Positions 16,319 through 23,325 of a stretch of DNA of 64,000 bases are shown in pieces. The notes beneath the pieces are model-generated. The model did not search any database, was not told the origin of the DNA, and saw nothing but the letters and a program-made list of their open reading frames with translations. The stretch comes from Pseudomonas sp. CFBP13508 (GTDB taxonomy: Bacteria; Pseudomonadota; Gammaproteobacteria; Pseudomonadales; Pseudomonadaceae). How positions within the stretch are numbered: the first letter of the stretch is position 1; the number at the start of each line of letters is the position of its first letter. The position numbers and the translations under genes were made by a program. The DNA lies in assembly GCF_005233515.1 (NCBI RefSeq), contig NZ_QFZZ01000003.1, positions 401,259-465,258 on the forward strand, written 5' to 3'.

Positions 16319-18217
16319 TTATGCAGCCGAAACCCGACGCTTCTCCGCCACCCAACTGCGCCCATACAGCACAGCAATCGCCACAATCGCCACCACCTGC
16401 GCGGTCAGCGAATAGGCATCGGCATGGATCCCCAGCCAGTCGAATTCAAAGAACGCCACCGGCCGTGTGCCGAAGATCCCGGCTTCCTGCAAGGCCTTCA
16501 CGCCATGCCCGGCAAATACCACCGACAACGCGCACAACAGCGCGGCGTTGATGCTGAAGAACAAGGTCAGCGGCAGTTTCGCCGAGCCGCGCAGGATCAC
16601 CCACGCCAGGCCGACCAGCAGCACCAGCGCCGTCGCGCCGCCGGCCAGCACGGCGTTGTGCCCGGCCGGCCCGGCCTGCAGCCACAGGGTTTCGTAGAAC
16701 AGGATCACTTCGAACAATTCGCGGTAGACCGAGAAGAACGCCAGGATCGCAAAACCGAAGCGACCACCGCCGCCGACCAGGCTGCTTTTGATGTAATCCT
16801 GCCAGGCCGCCGCGTGACGGCGGTCATGCATCCACACGCCGAGCCACAACACCATGACGCTGGCAAACAGCGCGGTGGCGCCTTCGAGCAACTCACGCTG
16901 CGAACCGCTGACGTCGATCACATACGCCGCCAGCGCCCAGGTGCCCAAGCCTGCCAGCAAGGCCAGGCCCCAACCGACGTTGACGCTGCGCACCGCCGAT
17001 TGCTGGCCAGTGTTACGCAGGAAGGCGAGGATCGCCGCCAGCACCAGAATCGCTTCCAGACCTTCGCGTAGCAGAATCAACAGACCGGAGATGTAGCTCA
17101 GCGACCAGCTCAGACCATCGCTGCCCAGCAGGCCGGCGGATTCCTTGAGTTTGGCCTTGGCCGCGTCCAGACGCTGCTCGGCCTGCTCGACGGGCAGACC
17201 GTCCTGCAGCGACTGCCGGTACGCCATCAGTGATTTTTCGGTGTCCTTGCGCACGTTGGCATCGACGTTATCCAGCGAGCTTTCGACCAGTTCGAAGCCT
17301 TCCAGATACGCCGCTACCGACAGGTCATAGGCCTGATCATGTTCACCGGCGCGGTAGGCCGCGAGGCTCTTGTCCAACGTGGCGGCGGTGTAATCGAGCA
17401 ACTGCGCTGGACCGCGCTTGACCTGCGGCGGTTGCGCGCGCTGAGCCCGGAACGTTGCCGCGACCTCTGCGCCCTCGGCAGCCTGCACTTCGGCCGGGGT
17501 CTGGCGGGCCAGGTCGGCGATGTTGTAGACCTTGTCGGACTTGGCGGCCGCCGCATCGGCACTGAAGCCGGCGATGTAGGTGGCCAGATCCCAGCGCTGG
17601 CGATCATCGAGCTGATCGGCGAACGCCGGCATGTCGGTGCCTTCGACGCCCTGGCCGAGGGTGCTGTAGATCGCGTACAGGCTCAGGTGATCCATGCGCG
17701 CCGCATCACGAAGGTTGGCAGGCGCGGGGGTCAGACCGACACCGGCCGGGCCGTCGCCAGCACCTGTATCGCCGTGGCACACCGAGCAGTTCTGCGCATA
17801 CAGCGGCGCGCCGCGTGTCGGGTCTGGAGTGATGATCGGTGCCTGACTGACTTCATAAGCCACCGCCAGTTTCGCCCCCAGCTGTCGGGCCTGACGGGCG
17901 ACATCAGCACCGTCCTGCTTCGCACTGATGGCTGCGTGCAAAGACTCCACGCCCTGTTCCAGCGCGACTTTTTCCGGTTTGGCTGGCAAGGAAGTGATCA
18001 AGCCTTGCAGAACCTGGGTGAATTCCAGCTGCTCGCGGTATTCGCCATCGTCGATGACTTTGCCTGCCGCGACCGTTGGCGGGTAATCGGCACTGATGTA
18101 ATCGAGCAGGTGCAACGCTTGCGGCGCGCCTTCCACGGTATCGGCCAGCAGCGGCAGGCTGCTCAGGGACAATAACGGGAACAGCAGCCAGGCCAGCAAT
18201 CGGGACGAGGCAGTCAT
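16319..18217 (-). CDS. Cytochrome c/FTR1-family iron permease fusion
   Basis: A 632-residue membrane protein. Signal peptide about residues 1-25; a periplasmic helical segment; a cytochrome c domain with heme motif CSVCH near residue 144 and a methionine ligand candidate in GTDMPAF; a second periplasmic helical region; then a C-terminal FTR1 permease with about seven membrane segments. Iron-binding REXXE motifs are visible as LREGLEAIL and YRELFEVIL. FTR1 proteins import iron coupled to oxidation, and a fused cytochrome could take the electrons. An 8-bp inverted repeat lies just upstream of the start; no clear Fur box was found. The domain order is known in pseudomonads. Confidence 0.88.
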   Translation of the reverse strand: MTASSRLLAWLLFPLLSLSSLPLLADTVEGAPQALHLLDYISADYPPTVAAGKVIDDGEYREQLEFTQVLQGLITSLPAKPEKVALEQGVESLHAAISAKQDGADVARQARQLGAKLAVAYEVSQAPIITPDPTRGAPLYAQNCSVCHGDTGAGDGPAGVGLTPAPANLRDAARMDHLSLYAIYSTLGQGVEGTDMPAFADQLDDRQRWDLATYIAGFSADAAAAKSDKVYNIADLARQTPAEVQAAEGAEVAATFRAQRAQPPQVKRGPAQLLDYTAATLDKSLAAYRAGEHDQAYDLSVAAYLEGFELVESSLDNVDANVRKDTEKSLMAYRQSLQDGLPVEQAEQRLDAAKAKLKESAGLLGSDGLSWSLSYISGLLILLREGLEAILVLAAILAFLRNTGQQSAVRSVNVGWGLALLAGLGTWALAAYVIDVSGSQRELLEGATALFASVMVLWLGVWMHDRRHAAAWQDYIKSSLVGGGGRFGFAILAFFSVYRELFEVILFYETLWLQAGPAGHNAVLAGGATALVLLVGLAWVILRGSAKLPLTLFFSINAALLCALSVVFAGHGVKALQEAGIFGTRPVAFFEFDWLGIHADAYSLTAQVVAIVAIAVLYGRSWVAEKRRVSAA

Positions 18218-18237
18218 GAACGAATCTCAAATGGAAA

Positions 18238-18265
18238 TGCGAAGTTACATATTGTTCACTTCGCA
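18238..18265. promoter_or_regulatory. Inverted repeat upstream of the FTR1 gene
   Basis: A perfect 8-bp inverted repeat TGCGAAGT-N12-ACTTCGCA begins 21 bases before the FTR1 start codon. It could be an operator or a leader hairpin; it does not match the Fur consensus. Confidence 0.4.
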
Positions 18266-18385
18266 GACGTTTCTCTCAAGCTTTGTCGGTGTCGGCAGGG
18301 AATGATTCATATCGCTGAAGCGATGTGCCACCATCGACTCCAATAACGTAAATGCTCCCCATTTGCTCAAGGAAGCCCCCTTTCA

Positions 18386-19789
18386 ATGCGCCACTGCCTG
18401 CTGCTTCCCCTGCTGTTGACCACCATTACACAACTGGCGGGTTGCGCGGCTTATCGCAATTACGATCTGGAGCTGGAACAGACCACCGAGCAATTGAAGC
18501 AAGGCAATGTCGCCGGCTCGCTGGCCTTGATCGAAGCGCATAACCCGGACGAGCAAAAGGATCTGCTCTATTACTTCGAGAAAGGTGCGGTGTTGAGTGC
18601 GGGCGGCGAACTGCCGCAGAGTCAGGCGGCATGGCGCAGTGCCGAGCAAATGGTGGTCGAACGCCAGGACACCATTGAAACCACCGGCGACAAACTCTTG
18701 GCTGCCATGGGTAATCACTGGGGCAGCATCATCAATGACAAGTTGCGCCGCTACGACGGCTATGACTATGAAAAAGTCATGCTGACCACGCAGATGGCCC
18801 TCAACCAGCTGGCCGTGAATGATTTCGACGGCGCCCGCGCCGACATCAAGAAAACCCATGAGCGCGAAGCGCTGATCGCACGGCAGCGCGAGCTCGAATA
18901 TGAGCGCGTCGAAGAGGTAGCGAAAAAGCAGGGTGTGCGCGTGCATTACAAGGATTTGCAGGGTTATCCGGTAGTCATGCTGGACGCGCCGGCGGTGATC
19001 GCCTTGAAGAACGGCTACCAAAGCGCGTTCAGTCACTACCTCGCGGGCTTTACATATGAAGCGCTCGGGGAAAAGAATCTCGCCGCGCCAGGCTATCGCC
19101 AAGCCATCGAATTACGCCCGGATCTGCCGTTCTTCCAGCAGGCATTGCGTGACCTCGACAGTCCCGGCCTCAAGGGTGACGAAAGCGACGTGCTGATCAT
19201 CGTGCAAAGCGGCCTCGCTCCCGCACGCAGTTCGCTGCGTGTGCCGTACCCGGTGAAGCTGGCAGACGGTCAGGTCATTGTCGCCAACATCTCGTTCCCT
19301 GTGATGGTGCCCGACACTTCAACGCCGTCGTTCAATCAGATCGGCATCGATGGACGGCAGAAGAAACTGATACCGGTCAACAGCATCACCGACATGTCCT
19401 TGCGTACGCTGCGCGATGACATGCCCGGCATCATCCAGCGCACCACCTACCGAGCCTTTCTGGCCGCCGATGTGCAAGCCACCGACAACCGACGCGACCC
19501 GAGCAAAGCATCGTACGTGACCCATTGGGATGGTTTCGAACAAGCCGATACGCGTACCTGGCGCACCCTGCCCAATCTGACTCAGGTAATGCGCCTGCGC
19601 CTGAAGAAAGGTGAACATGCGATCACCCTGCCCCACGTCAATAACGCCGCGCCGCTGACTATCCGGATCGATCAGAACCGCCAGGTCATCACCCTGCGCG
19701 CCCTAGGCGATCGAGTTTTCGCCAATGGCAGCGCGTTCGCGCCCGGCAAAACAGCGGCCGAACGCGTCGTGAACAACTTGACCAAATGA
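18386..19789 (+). CDS. COG3014-family outer-membrane lipoprotein, copy 1
   Basis: A 467-residue lipoprotein with signal peptide and lipobox LAGC (Cys20); Ala at +2 predicts outer-membrane sorting. The N-terminal half looks like helical repeats (LYYFEKGAVL, EKVMLTTQMALNQLA). The middle carries YQSAFSHYLAGFTYEALGEK and a C-terminal half is richer in beta strands (IIVQSGLAPARSS, MRLRLKKGEHAITLP). It is a clear paralogue of the product at 19996-21390, sharing these blocks nearly unchanged. Molecular function is unknown. It precedes the ycfL/lpoB-like genes, suggesting a role at the cell envelope. A 206-base gap with its own promoter-like sequence separates it from copy 2. Confidence 0.85.
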   Translation: MRHCLLLPLLLTTITQLAGCAAYRNYDLELEQTTEQLKQGNVAGSLALIEAHNPDEQKDLLYYFEKGAVLSAGGELPQSQAAWRSAEQMVVERQDTIETTGDKLLAAMGNHWGSIINDKLRRYDGYDYEKVMLTTQMALNQLAVNDFDGARADIKKTHEREALIARQRELEYERVEEVAKKQGVRVHYKDLQGYPVVMLDAPAVIALKNGYQSAFSHYLAGFTYEALGEKNLAAPGYRQAIELRPDLPFFQQALRDLDSPGLKGDESDVLIIVQSGLAPARSSLRVPYPVKLADGQVIVANISFPVMVPDTSTPSFNQIGIDGRQKKLIPVNSITDMSLRTLRDDMPGIIQRTTYRAFLAADVQATDNRRDPSKASYVTHWDGFEQADTRTWRTLPNLTQVMRLRLKKGEHAITLPHVNNAAPLTIRIDQNRQVITLRALGDRVFANGSAFAPGKTAAERVVNNLTK

Positions 19790-19823
19790 TGGCACGAGCC
19801 TTCGTTAGGCCACTAAAAAGACA

Positions 19824-19852
19824 TTACATCGCCATCACCCCGCGCTTATAAT
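19824..19852 (+). promoter_or_regulatory. Sigma-70-type promoter before COG3014 copy 2
   Basis: TTACAT-N17-TATAAT with a perfect -10 box at 19847-19852. It suggests that copy 2 and the downstream ycfL, lpoB-like and CsgG-like genes can be transcribed independently of copy 1. The long leader (about 135 bases) before 19996 carries no gene. Confidence 0.5.
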
Positions 19853-19995
19853 GCCGCGCCCTCGCCCAGCGAGCCGGCATCAAAAGCTCCTCACCCATGA
19901 GGAATTGGCAGGAGGCCAGCGCCGCCGTCGATAGGTCACACCAGCCCGACCAGCACACGCGGCTGCAAGTTTTGTTACTCAGGGAAGAAGTACCC

Positions 19996-21390
19996 ATGGC
20001 ATTCCGCGCTCCCATGCTGCTCGCGCTCAGCGCCGTCACGCTGTTGTCCGGCTGCGCAGCGTTTCGCAACTACGATTCCGAACTGGCCCAGACCAATCAG
20101 CAACTGGCTTCCGGCAACGTCGACGCGGCGCTGACCCTGCTGGAAAAGAACAACACCGGCACCGACAAAGACCTGCTCTATTACTTCGAGAAAGGTGAAC
20201 TGCTGCGCGCCAAGGGCGATCTGTCGGGCAGCCAGAACGCTTGGGGCAGTGCCGACCAGGTAGTCGGTCAGTGGGAAGACGCGGTCAAGCTTGACTCGGC
20301 CAAGTACCTGGCGCAGTTCGGCAGCTTCATCGTCAACGACAAGGTGCGTCGCTACGAAGGCTATGACTACGAAAAAGTCATGCTGACCACGCAGATGGCC
20401 CTGAACCTGTTGGCAGTCAACGATTTCGATGGTGCCCGCACGGCGATCAAAAAGACCCACGAACGCGAAGCGGTGATCGCTGACCTGCGCGACAAGGAAT
20501 ACCTCAAGAGCGAAGAACAGGCCGAAAAAGAAGGCATCAAGACCCAGTACAAGGATCTGCAGGGTTATCCGGTGGCCAGCCTCGACGCACCGGAAGTGGT
20601 CGGCCTGAAAAACAGCTACCAGAGTGCGTTCAGCCATTACCTGGCCGGTTTCGTTTACGAAGCCCTGGGCGAGAAGGATCTGGCCGCGCCGGGTTATCGC
20701 AAGGCTGCCGAACTGCGCCCGAACACGCCGCTGCTCGAGCAGGCGCTGGTCAATCTCGACAAGCCTTCCAAATCCGATGACAGCGACATTCTCATCGTCG
20801 TGCAGAGCGGTCTGGCCCCGGCCCGCGACTCGATTCGCGTACCGCTGCCGCTGCCGATTTCCAACAACGTGGTGATCACTCCGCTGTCGTTCCCGATCAT
20901 CAAACCGGACACCTCCACCGCGCCTTTTGCGCAGATCGGCGTCGACGGCAAGCAGGTCGACCTGACCGCGCTGAACAGCACCACCGCCATGTCCCGCCGC
21001 GCTCTACGCGATGACATGCCGGGGATCATCGTGCGCACCACCGTGCGCGCAATCACCAAAGGCGTGGCGCAAAAGCAGATCAACGAGACCAATCCGCTGG
21101 CCGGTCTCGCCGTGGGTATTTCTTCAGCGGTGCTTGAAGGTGCCGATACCCGTACATGGCGCACCCTGCCGGACAACACCCAAGTGGTGCGTCTGCGCCT
21201 GAAAAAAGGTGAGCATCAGGTTACCCTGCCGAGCGCCGTCGGCGGCTCGGTGGTCAAGGTCACTGTCGACCAGCGCTACCAAGTGATCAGCCTGCGTGCC
21301 GTGGGCAACCAGGTATTCGCTGGCGGCATCGCTGCTCACGTAATGCCGAGCGCTGCCGCGACCAACGTCGCCAGCCTCAAACAACCTTAA
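19996..21390 (+). CDS. COG3014-family outer-membrane lipoprotein, copy 2
   Basis: A 464-residue paralogue of the preceding protein. Lipobox LSGC with Cys20 and Ala at +2. Shared blocks include LLYYFEKGELL, GYDYEKVMLTTQMALN, KKTHEREA, YKDLQGYPV, YQSAFSHYLAGF and RLRLKKGEH. It differs in the region before the ADTRTWRTLP block, where it has a more hydrophobic, glycine-containing stretch (LAGLAVGISSAVLEGADTR). The start ATG at 19996 follows GGGAAGAAG; an upstream ATG at 19897 adds 33 residues without a signal sequence. The next gene begins 16 bases downstream, so this is the head of a four-gene unit. Confidence 0.87.
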   Translation: MAFRAPMLLALSAVTLLSGCAAFRNYDSELAQTNQQLASGNVDAALTLLEKNNTGTDKDLLYYFEKGELLRAKGDLSGSQNAWGSADQVVGQWEDAVKLDSAKYLAQFGSFIVNDKVRRYEGYDYEKVMLTTQMALNLLAVNDFDGARTAIKKTHEREAVIADLRDKEYLKSEEQAEKEGIKTQYKDLQGYPVASLDAPEVVGLKNSYQSAFSHYLAGFVYEALGEKDLAAPGYRKAAELRPNTPLLEQALVNLDKPSKSDDSDILIVVQSGLAPARDSIRVPLPLPISNNVVITPLSFPIIKPDTSTAPFAQIGVDGKQVDLTALNSTTAMSRRALRDDMPGIIVRTTVRAITKGVAQKQINETNPLAGLAVGISSAVLEGADTRTWRTLPDNTQVVRLRLKKGEHQVTLPSAVGGSVVKVTVDQRYQVISLRAVGNQVFAGGIAAHVMPSAAATNVASLKQP

Positions 21391-21406
21391 GAACGGAGTC
21401 TTTGCA

Positions 21407-21778
21407 ATGCGCTTGAAGATCATCGCCGTCGCCGCCCTCGCCTTGCTGGCCGGCTGCGCCACCCCGCCACCGCCGGAGCCGGGCAGCGCCGCGAGCAAAG
21501 TCGTGGCCATGGGCCCGCAGAAACACATCGTCGTCGGCGCCATGCGCGTGGCTCGTGAAAACGGCTTCATGACCGTCAACGTGCAGTTGAGCAACACCCT
21601 CAACAGCAACAAGATTTTCTACTACCGCTTCGCCTGGCTTGGCGCCGAAGGTTTCCCGGTTGCCGAAGAAGAAGTGTGGAAAAGCCAGATGATGTACGGC
21701 GCCCAGACCAGCTTCATTCAGGCCATCGCGCCGACCCCGAAAGCCGTGGATTTCCGTCTGGAAATCAAGACGCCGTAA
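21407..21778 (+). CDS. YcfL family lipoprotein
   Basis: A 123-residue lipoprotein with lipobox LAGC (Cys17), followed by a Pro-rich stretch (ATPPPPEPG) and a compact beta-rich domain. Visible family-like features are MTVNVQLSNTLNS and YYRFAWLGAEGF. In E. coli, ycfL lies directly before lpoB, and the same order is seen here (lpoB-like gene 36 bases downstream). The function of YcfL is not established; a role close to LpoB in the periplasm is inferred from neighbours. Confidence 0.85.
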   Translation: MRLKIIAVAALALLAGCATPPPPEPGSAASKVVAMGPQKHIVVGAMRVARENGFMTVNVQLSNTLNSNKIFYYRFAWLGAEGFPVAEEEVWKSQMMYGAQTSFIQAIAPTPKAVDFRLEIKTP

Positions 21779-21814
21779 ACCCGCCACCCTATTTCTGATT
21801 GAGAGAGCTTTCTC

Positions 21815-22402
21815 ATGTTTGCACGCTTTTCCTGCATCGCCGTCATCGCCCTGCTCGCCTCCGGTTGCGCCAACACCTCGCCGACCCTGGGCAGCAAGAA
21901 CATCAGCTATGGCGACACCAAGGCTGTTGAAACCGTGACCAACGAATTCGGTTCGACCGACCTGCAAATGATCGCCGAGTCGATGACCCGCTCGCTGGCC
22001 CAGTCCGGCATCCTGCAGGGTCGTCCGGTAGTTCAGGTCTACGATGTGAAGAACAAGACCAGCGAGTACATCGACACCCGCGAAATCACCACCAGCATCA
22101 AGACTCAGTTGATGAAGACCGGTGTTGCGCGCTTCGCCAGCGACAACAATGCGATGCAGAGCCAGGTTGACCAGCTCAAGCTGCAAAACCAGAGCGGCTT
22201 GTACAAGAAAAGCACCGTGGCCAAGACCGGCAACATGGTTGCCGCCAAGTACCGCATCGAAGGCTCGATCAGCTCGATCGTCAAGCGCAGCAGCGACTAC
22301 AAGGACGTCTTCTACAAATTCAGCCTGCAGTTGATCGACGTCGAAAGCGGTCTGGCCGAGTGGATGGACGAAAAAGAGATCCGCAAAACCACGGAGCGTT
22401 AA
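21815..22402 (+). CDS. LpoB-like penicillin-binding-protein activator lipoprotein
   Basis: A 195-residue lipoprotein with lipobox ASGC (Cys18) and an LpoB/CsgG-like globular domain: DLQMIAESMTRSLAQSGIL, RPVVQVYDVKNKTSEYIDT and AAKYRIEGSISSIVKR. In E. coli LpoB is an outer-membrane lipoprotein that reaches through the periplasm to activate PBP1B. This protein lacks the long Pro-rich linker of E. coli LpoB: the folded domain starts about 25 residues after the lipid anchor. P. aeruginosa is known to use an unrelated activator, LpoP, so the partner of this LpoB-like protein is uncertain. Three bases separate it from the next gene. Confidence 0.87.
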   Translation: MFARFSCIAVIALLASGCANTSPTLGSKNISYGDTKAVETVTNEFGSTDLQMIAESMTRSLAQSGILQGRPVVQVYDVKNKTSEYIDTREITTSIKTQLMKTGVARFASDNNAMQSQVDQLKLQNQSGLYKKSTVAKTGNMVAAKYRIEGSISSIVKRSSDYKDVFYKFSLQLIDVESGLAEWMDEKEIRKTTER

Positions 22403-22405
22403 TCG

Positions 22406-23152
22406 ATGCGCACATGGATTGGCATGATGGCCCTGGCTTGCGCGTTCAGCGCGCAGGCGGCCCCGAAAGTGGCGGTGACGGATCTGGCGTATCAGGAGCG
22501 CGTGGAGCAATACATCCACATCGTTTCGGCGCAGAGCAATCACCGCGAGAGTTACTACAGCGCCAGCGGTTCTTCGAGCTACAACGAGATCGAAGCGACC
22601 ACCAGCTACATCGAACAGGGCGAGTTGCGCAAATTCACCGGCGACATCAAGGGTGAAATCCTGCGTACCGGCATGTTCCAGCTGGTGCAGGGCACGCCGT
22701 ATACCGCCTCATCCAAAGGCGATGTGTATGACGTGATCAAGCGCATCAAGGCCGGCAACTTCAAAGGCGCCGACTACGTGCTGTTCGGCACCGTGTCCGA
22801 CATCGACTTCACCCAGGACATCAATGAGCTGGCGCACACCGACAGCTACTCGGCGGTGCTGGGCCTGACGCTGGTGGCGGATTTCAGCCTGATCAACACC
22901 AAGACCTACGAGATCACCTCGGCCTTCACGGCGATGGGCGAAGCGCAGGACACCAAACTGGTGAACCATCGCGACATCAAGATCTCGCTGAACCGTCCGC
23001 GGGTGGTGCGCGAGGTGTCGAAGGCCTTGGGCGAAGACGTGGCCGGGCAACTGAGCATGCAGCTCGGTGGTGGTGACGGTTACGAGCAGCCGCGTGAAGC
23101 GCCGCAGCGCAACAATCTGCCGCGTGACACGGCGCCGGTGATTTTACGCTGA
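22406..23152 (+). CDS. CsgG/LpoB-like periplasmic protein of unknown function
   Basis: A 248-residue protein with a Sec signal peptide (MMALACAFSAQA, cleavage near residue 19) and no canonical lipobox, so probably soluble in the periplasm. After the signal, PKVAVTDLAYQERV and later ADYVLFGTVSDIDF followed by YEITSAFTAMGEAQ recall the CsgG/LpoB-type alpha-beta fold. Residues 30-60 are Ser/Tyr-rich, and the C-tail after about 225 is polar and Pro/Arg-rich. It is three bases after the lpoB-like gene and so is certainly co-transcribed. A separate, divergent copy of the LpoB fold in the same operon is unusual. Function unknown. Confidence 0.75.
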   Translation: MRTWIGMMALACAFSAQAAPKVAVTDLAYQERVEQYIHIVSAQSNHRESYYSASGSSSYNEIEATTSYIEQGELRKFTGDIKGEILRTGMFQLVQGTPYTASSKGDVYDVIKRIKAGNFKGADYVLFGTVSDIDFTQDINELAHTDSYSAVLGLTLVADFSLINTKTYEITSAFTAMGEAQDTKLVNHRDIKISLNRPRVVREVSKALGEDVAGQLSMQLGGGDGYEQPREAPQRNNLPRDTAPVILR

Positions 23153-23185
23153 GCCGGATCTGACAACTTTTGTGGCGAAGGGCTC

Positions 23186-23292
23186 TGTGGCGAGGGGATT
23201 TATCCCCGTTGGGTCGCGAAGCGGCCCTCGTTATTGATGCAAGACGATTGGGACTGCTGCGCAGTCCAACGGGGATAAATCCCCTCGCCACA
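23186..23292. repeat. Palindromic repeat, GGCGAGGGGATTTATCCCC family
   Basis: Inverted copies of TGTGGCGAGGGGATTTATCC at 23186 and ending at 23292, with a shorter additional half-copy at 23171. A second example of this family lies at 42811-42905. Confidence 0.85.
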
Positions 23293-23325
23293 AAAGCTCG
23301 CTTGCCCCGATGTCTCGGTAGACAT

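Follow-up and report, generated by a model that had tools for sequence, protein, structure and literature searches.

Introduction

LpoB of Escherichia coli is the textbook example of wall synthesis controlled from the outer membrane. Its gene is known to form a pair with ycfL, and each protein family considered in this study is already known or named. PelC has the LpoB/CsgG fold, and FlgP is, we assume, an LPP20 protein. According to two reports (PMC6220978, PMC4632607), E. coli LpoB uses a disordered reach of 145 Å as its means of contacting penicillin-binding protein 1B (PBP1B). Another report (PMC12141448) describes a ring of twelve PelC lipoproteins beneath the outer membrane, with two PelB tetratricopeptide repeats (TPRs) inside the ring, and FlgP forms discs beneath the outer membrane, as described in PMC11756786. 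This study investigated a cluster of five genes in a 64,000-nucleotide stretch of Pseudomonas sp. CFBP13508 (contig NZ_QFZZ01000003.1, positions 401,259 to 465,258), the whole of which is referred to as the window. The open reading frame list of the window places all five genes on the + strand at positions 18386-23152, and they encode, in order, two predicted TPR lipoproteins (genes 1 and 2), a YcfL (DUF1425) lipoprotein (gene 3), an LpoB-family lipoprotein (gene 4), and a periplasmic protein whose domain is likely LpoB/CsgG-like (gene 5).

The results revealed that genes 2-5 represent, in Pseudomonas, a module of old standing in the Gammaproteobacteria. The constant core of this module is a TPR lipoprotein together with an LpoB carrying a short linker, and its further members are YcfL, LPP20 lipoproteins or CsgG-family proteins. 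No prior description of a TPR lipoprotein-LpoB module with alternative third members was recognized among the openly licensed papers listed in literature searches.

Results

The conservation of the cluster was examined at the genus and class levels. Genes 2-3-4-5 were all present in 80/80 of the Pseudomonas loci that were kept, these being the best 80 of the 278 found with gene 2, and the grouping proposed for the window therefore goes beyond chance. Among 149 Pseudomonas genomes, the TPR lipoprotein was detected in 77 and gene 5 in 77, and the two sets of genomes were identical; G507 was left out of both genus surveys as a case of chance matches (E 4.2e-5 and 2.2e-4) in different places. The class survey covered 274 genomes and required a best E value of at most 1e-20 for the TPR lipoprotein and at least 75 bits for LpoB. 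It identified the TPR lipoprotein in 51 genomes, LpoB in 52, and both in 49 (Fisher p 5.7e-48, relatedness ignored); the two genes lay within 5 kb of each other in 46 of the 49 genomes and on separate contigs in 3. The co-occurrence thus extends far beyond close relatives, the point on which a prior sequence-only reading of the window had staked its proposal. Five genomes were exceptions in the class survey, and two of them (G230 and G409) carry a diverged partner next door once the region is read. Many weak partial LpoB matches fall outside the class counts. In a sample of the order, a PF13036 (LpoB) match was present in 81 of 194 genomes, 76 of which scored at least 71 bits.

To describe the architecture of the module in other genera, we compared 57 loci with LpoB outside Pseudomonas, some of which had been picked partly as exceptions and two of which (L214 and L215) share one genome; the families were confirmed with Pfam on examples. 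Three loci were dropped from this count: L100 because it belongs to Pseudomonas, L112 because it has no LpoB, and L219 because it comes from the genome that also contains L118. The TPR lipoprotein was present in 50/57 modules. LPP20 proteins were found as third members in 20/57 modules and CsgG-family proteins in 15/57, and the two never occurred together (0/57). YcfL accompanied CsgG in 12/15 loci and LPP20 in 0/20. The commonest orders were TPR-YcfL-LpoB (10 loci), TPR-YcfL-LpoB-CsgG (8), TPR-LpoB-LPP20 (8), and LPP20-LpoB-TPR-LPP20 (7), and the third members included matches to the Pfam CsgG, LPP20, and FlgT domains. The order in the window, TPR-TPR-YcfL-LpoB-gene 5, is of the TPR-YcfL-LpoB-CsgG type, with gene 5 occupying the CsgG slot. 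The sequence-only reading had placed its emphasis on a ycfL-lpoB pair; the pair is indeed present, but YcfL occurs in only 24/57 modules, and the core is formed by the TPR lipoprotein and LpoB. At locus L208 (G409:C1:96000-110000), a diverged LpoB is accompanied by YcfL, a TPR lipoprotein, and a pair of CsgG-family proteins, of which one lies in a frame of ~940 residues.

We further analyzed whether the LpoB of the module is a PBP1B activator. In the genome carrying the window, PBP1B lies on another contig than the module and has an adjoining LpoP, which was identified by an E value of 2.6e-53 to solved LpoP. This arrangement supports the idea of the sequence-only reading that the LpoB of the module needs another partner. 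PBP1B is not present wherever LpoB is. It was absent from 5 of the 17 LpoB genomes checked with the PBP1B model (G004, G042, G079, G102, and G016, which are 96-100% complete), in which no match reached 215 bits, the cut-off being 717.75. Four further genomes (G088, G097, G026, and G065) with full-length matches of 695-713 bits, slightly under the cut-off, were counted as having PBP1B. PBP1B was also missing from G119 and G142, but the completeness of these genomes is 74% and 84%. A TPR partner beside LpoB was read in three of these five PBP1B-less genomes, G004, G042, and G102.

The linker of the module LpoB was compared with that of the E. coli protein. Between the lipid-bearing cysteine and one fixed domain column, gene 4 has 31 residues and E. 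coli LpoB 59. All 68 module LpoBs had linkers of 22-31 residues (31 in the window and four other Pseudomonas, 22-26 in the 63 others; the lipobox of L161 was set by eye), and the long linker expected of a PBP1B-activating LpoB was therefore found in none of the 68, gene 4 included. The link to dedicated PBP1B activation as the main role of the module LpoB looks weak. The label "penicillin-binding protein activator" may mislead here, because the constant companion of this LpoB is a helical-repeat protein and not PBP1B. Module LpoBs could nevertheless act on a synthase through their TPR partner.

The possibility that LpoB substitutes for LpoP was ruled out. Both co-occur in 41 of the 76 LpoB genomes of the order, in which PBP1B has an LpoP-like gene at a distance of no more than 4 kb, and LpoB is therefore no simple LpoP replacement. 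This arrangement likewise speaks against PBP1B activation as the main role of LpoB. The remainder comprised 29 genomes without an LpoP-like match and 6 with a match that was left uncounted, either distant from PBP1B (G021, G025, G028, G063, and G102) or unplaced, the UB2H position not being listed (G049). Among the places listed, the nearest PBP1B noticed was that of G084 (G084:C105:84102-91594, locus L219), where ~7 kb of a single contig separate PBP1B, recognized by its UB2H domain, from the lpoB module.

The family assignments of the individual genes were as follows. Gene 2 (19996..21390, + strand; 464 residues, lipobox LSGC-A) is the second, core copy of the TPR lipoprotein; its longest open reading frame opens at 19897, and the lipoprotein signal arises from the ATG at 19996. 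Genes 1 and 2 matched TPR models alone in Pfam, with scores under the cut-off. A profile of 20 relatives matched TPR chains in the PDB, among them a designed TPR (E 2.4e-9). The AlphaFold2 model of gene 2 (mean predicted local distance difference test [pLDDT] 74, predicted template modeling score 0.79) comprises a TPR superhelix at ~26-255 followed by a mixed beta/helix portion at 263-450, and fold searches with this model returned TPR-type matches. As judged from the profile and the predicted model, gene 2 is a TPR protein, and gene 1, which shares 57% identity with gene 2, is by that identity predicted to be one as well. Both genes carry COG3014 as a provisional label from the sequence-only reading. 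In a tree of 62 sequences, the gene 1 clade is sister to the gene 2 clade, and both are nested in one of Pseudomonas (support values 1.0, 0.97, and 0.89); the two genes therefore resemble a duplication within the genus. In another genome, a second copy of the TPR lipoprotein (G495:C1:719825-721142) is split over several frames, possibly through decay or an assembly error.

Gene 3 (21407..21778, + strand; 123 residues, lipobox LAGC-A) matched PF07233 (DUF1425) with an E value of 3.3e-19 and 69 bits (cut-off 28.3), and E. coli YcfL scored 91.3 bits against the same model. Gene 4 (21815..22402, + strand; 195 residues, lipobox ASGC-A) encodes the short-linker LpoB and matched PF13036 with an E value of 2.6e-41 and 141 bits (cut-off 22.3), as well as the NCBIfam model TIGR02722 with 141 bits (cut-off 110.55). 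Some module LpoBs of other genomes score under the TIGR02722 cut-off (86.7 and 73.9 bits). These matches establish genes 3 and 4 as the ycfL-lpoB pair that had been proposed, and the genome annotation of E. coli K-12 bears out the order with which it had been compared, ycfL immediately 5' of lpoB. The LpoB profile matched the solved E. coli-type LpoB (E 1.5e-11) and was related to the CsgG-like profile (probability 97.5). It also matched structures 5t10 and 5t11, which are annotated as uncharacterized and which we take to be PelC.

Gene 5 (22406..23152, + strand; 248 residues, without a lipobox) was analyzed for a possible LpoB/CsgG-like domain. Its match to the Pfam LpoB model was sub-threshold (19 bits; cut-off 22.3), and no match to CsgG (PF03783) was found in the Pfam search at E values up to 1. 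The hhalign probability was 75.7 to LpoB and 78.9 to the CsgG-like set, compared with 9.1 to an unrelated control. Because the AlphaFold2 model built from 31 close relatives reached a pLDDT of only 33, the fold claim rests on these profiles, which suggest that gene 5 is likely related to LpoB and to CsgG-like proteins. The stretch between two shared landmarks, with the whole second landmark included, was 50 residues in gene 5, 39 in the gene 4 LpoB, and 31 in E. coli LpoB. The same stretch was 48-50 residues in 7 of 11 CsgG-like proteins and 25 in one, with no value in three; the measurement also gave no value for E. coli CsgG, and the insert lengths between the landmarks are not decisive for a CsgG-type hairpin in gene 5. 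Two other loci (L032:11323-12226 and G474:C4:1359802-1361210) carry, downstream of the cluster, 2-3 incomplete gene 5 copies in tandem, ~535 bases apart, which cover the C-terminal half (residues 135-247). At G529:C20:36157-36893, gene 5 is spread over two frames, possibly as a result of decay or an assembly error.

Gene 1 (18386..19789, + strand; 467 residues, lipobox LAGC-A), the first copy of the TPR lipoprotein, is variable and exchangeable. It was present in 45 of the 80 Pseudomonas loci and split at a 75% identity threshold into two classes of 26 and 19 loci, the gene 1 of the window being nearest to members of the 19-locus class, for example, L015. The protein encoded by gene 2 is identical to its counterpart in Pseudomonas siliginis SWRI31. 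We compared the DNA of the window with that of P. siliginis (L013) in 300-base bins. Identity was 93-98% in the upstream gene, fell to 84% in the boundary bin (18100-18399) and to 61-70% in gene 1, and was 96-99% again in gene 2. The comparison with L015 revealed the reversed pattern, with 93-97% in gene 1 and 85-91% upstream. Gene 2 was at least 95% identical in 455 pairs of loci, and gene 1 was less than 75% identical in 287 of them; the upstream neighbor in the same pairs had a median identity of 94.0 and a minimum of 87.3. Where gene 1 was present, the upstream gene ended ~1.7-1.9 kb before gene 2 in 37/45 loci and 2.7-3.5 kb before it in 8; where gene 1 was absent, this distance was 0.1-0.4 kb in 34/35 loci. 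Divergence between the two classes is lowest at residues 121-160 and 201-240, both of which belong to the TPR part, and highest at the C terminus. These comparisons of sequence indicate that gene 1 behaves as a cassette whose site is fixed and whose content can be exchanged. The simplest reading would be the exchange of whole alleles between lineages, and the swapping of alleles between close relatives is likely a sign of exchange under diversifying selection.

The layout of the cluster agreed in full with the five-gene envelope cluster described by the sequence-only reading. All genes lie on the same strand, with intergenic gaps of 206, 16, 36, and 3 bases in gene order. Lipoboxes were predicted in 4/5 products, all with Ala at +2, and gene 5 has a signal-like start only; both features were judged by eye. 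A promoter-like site matching 10/12 consensus positions lies between the TPR lipoprotein genes (19823..19852, + strand). Its position in the 206-base gap would fit the joint transcription of genes 2-5 separately from gene 1, although the site is weak evidence because 3 such sites were seen in the region versus 1.4 expected. With a G+C content of 0.597, the cluster is similar to the window (0.609), and the genome carrying the window comprises 5,998,808 bases. Immediately 3' of gene 5, window positions 23165-23300 contain an inverted pair of GTGGCGAGGGGATTTATCCCC-type stretches, presumably a repeat that is frequent among members of the P. fluorescens group.

Discussion

We tentatively favor, at somewhat less than even confidence, the interpretation that the module is an outer-membrane lipoprotein assembly, composed of a TPR arm and CsgG-fold subunits, and not a dedicated PBP1B activator. 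An assembly anchored in the outer membrane is proposed because the pairing of PelB with the PelC ring and the discs of FlgP provide analogies. The products of the module would form a single periplasmic assembly held by the outer membrane. Its LpoB-type subunits, here also gene 5, would adopt the CsgG fold at the inner face of that membrane and would probably oligomerize into a ring like those of PelC and CsgG. The large lipoprotein would dock on this ring through its TPR arm, as the PelB TPRs do in PelC, and the arm would extend towards the peptidoglycan, with gene 1 as a putative swappable second arm. Within the envelope, the assembly may provide a platform for structure or sorting instead of a switch dedicated to PBP1B.

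Several points weigh against this interpretation. TPR and CsgG folds occur in many unrelated systems, and co-occurrence shows shared function, not a complex; moreover, the genomes in the surveys are related and not independent. Neither LPP20 nor CsgG is present in 22/57 modules, and an LpoB threshold looser than that of the class survey adds two genomes in which the TPR lipoprotein is missing, G423 and G308, with full-length LpoB matches of 64 and 55 bits. The module LpoB is homologous to E. coli LpoB, scoring above the TIGR02722 cut-off. UB2H exceeds its cut-off in 171 of the 194 genomes of the order (183 at E values up to 0.001), and LpoB may therefore still have a role at PBP1B; in addition, the 17 genomes checked for PBP1B were chosen partly for a weak or absent UB2H match.

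We assign a lower, though appreciable, probability to an alternative. The TPR lipoprotein might provide the periplasmic reach missing from the short LpoB linker, comparable to the TPRs in LpoA, or the module might serve a synthase other than PBP1B. The LpoB score above the NCBIfam cut-off, the profile match to the solved E. coli-type protein, the retention of ycfL-lpoB in E. coli, and the existence of PBP1B in this genome are all consistent with such a role, and TPRs are recurrent in regulators of class A penicillin-binding proteins (PMC7267771). However, the module occurs in near-complete genomes without PBP1B, LpoP pairs with PBP1B here, and the linker is short. Its partners are, furthermore, LPP20 and CsgG proteins, for which we know of no link to penicillin-binding proteins.

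The CsgG-family partners in 15/57 loci raise the question of an export pore, in which gene 5, or elsewhere a CsgG-family protein, would be a CsgG-like outer-membrane channel and the lipoproteins its assembly factors. Gene 5 does align with CsgG-like proteins, and its landmark stretch of 50 residues resembles that of 7/11 of these proteins (48-50) more than those of the LpoBs (39 and 31); nevertheless, the stretch is 25 in one CsgG-like protein and had no value in three or in E. coli CsgG. Considering that gene 5 lacks both a lipobox and a match to any CsgG model at E values up to 1, that 20/57 modules have LPP20 and no CsgG and 22/57 neither, and that no cargo gene was recognized, we regard a pore as unlikely. 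Least probable is an accessory flagellar outer-membrane ring like FlgO/FlgP/FlgT. The CsgG, LPP20, and FlgT Pfam domains among the third members would agree with such a ring, but no flagellar genes were noticed among the neighbors, which were clustered across loci with a few of them annotated, and the module is missing from about half of the 149 genomes of Pseudomonas, a mostly flagellated genus.

An evolutionary scenario can be offered as speculation that is more doubtful than not. The ancestral and still commonest role of LpoB would be that of the CsgG-fold subunit in a TPR-lipoprotein assembly, and E. coli LpoB would be a late derivative that lost its TPR partner, kept YcfL, and lengthened its linker to reach PBP1B. 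In Pseudomonas, the assembly would have the swappable gene 1 product as a second TPR arm under diversifying selection, for example, by phages or rivals using the arm. With such an ancestral role, many annotations reading "penicillin-binding protein activator LpoB" would be mislabelled. If most LpoB-family genes serve another machine, automatic annotation propagates a wrong function across numerous genomes, and the question of how PBP1B control originated becomes testable. The module also gives a shared context to poorly characterized families (the TPR lipoprotein, YcfL, LPP20, and CsgG-like proteins), and the two-class gene 1 is a natural handle on what the assembly encounters.

The module can be compared with four known systems. 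In E. coli (hinT-ycfL-lpoB-thiK-nagZ), as in the window, a DUF1425 gene lies immediately 5' of the LpoB gene, and both LpoBs exceed the TIGR02722 and PF13036 cut-offs, whereas the E. coli protein has 59 residues before the domain column and gene 4 has 31. No TPR lipoprotein gene is annotated in the 7 kb surrounding E. coli lpoB, the remaining genome not having been searched. LpoP of Pseudomonas is likewise an outer-membrane lipoprotein bearing TPRs, and the TPR part of gene 2 aligned with LpoP structure 6w5q (Z 11.7, root-mean-square deviation 2.0, 105 residues), in a tie with many TPR chains; in contrast to gene 2, which has an extra C-terminal part, LpoP adjoins PBP1B elsewhere in the genome. 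FlgO/FlgP/FlgT and CsgG resemble the module in the LPP20, CsgG, and FlgT-domain matches among its third members, whereas the module loci were not recognized as flagellar or curli loci and their constant partner is the TPR lipoprotein. PelB, unlike the lipoprotein encoded by gene 2, in whose model no barrel is recognizable, has a beta-barrel. The LpoB-like fold that we ascribe to PelC would be supported by the profile matches if 5t10 and 5t11 are PelC. What the module would share with PelB-PelC is a TPR protein partnered with an outer-membrane lipoprotein ring, as presented in PMC12141448.

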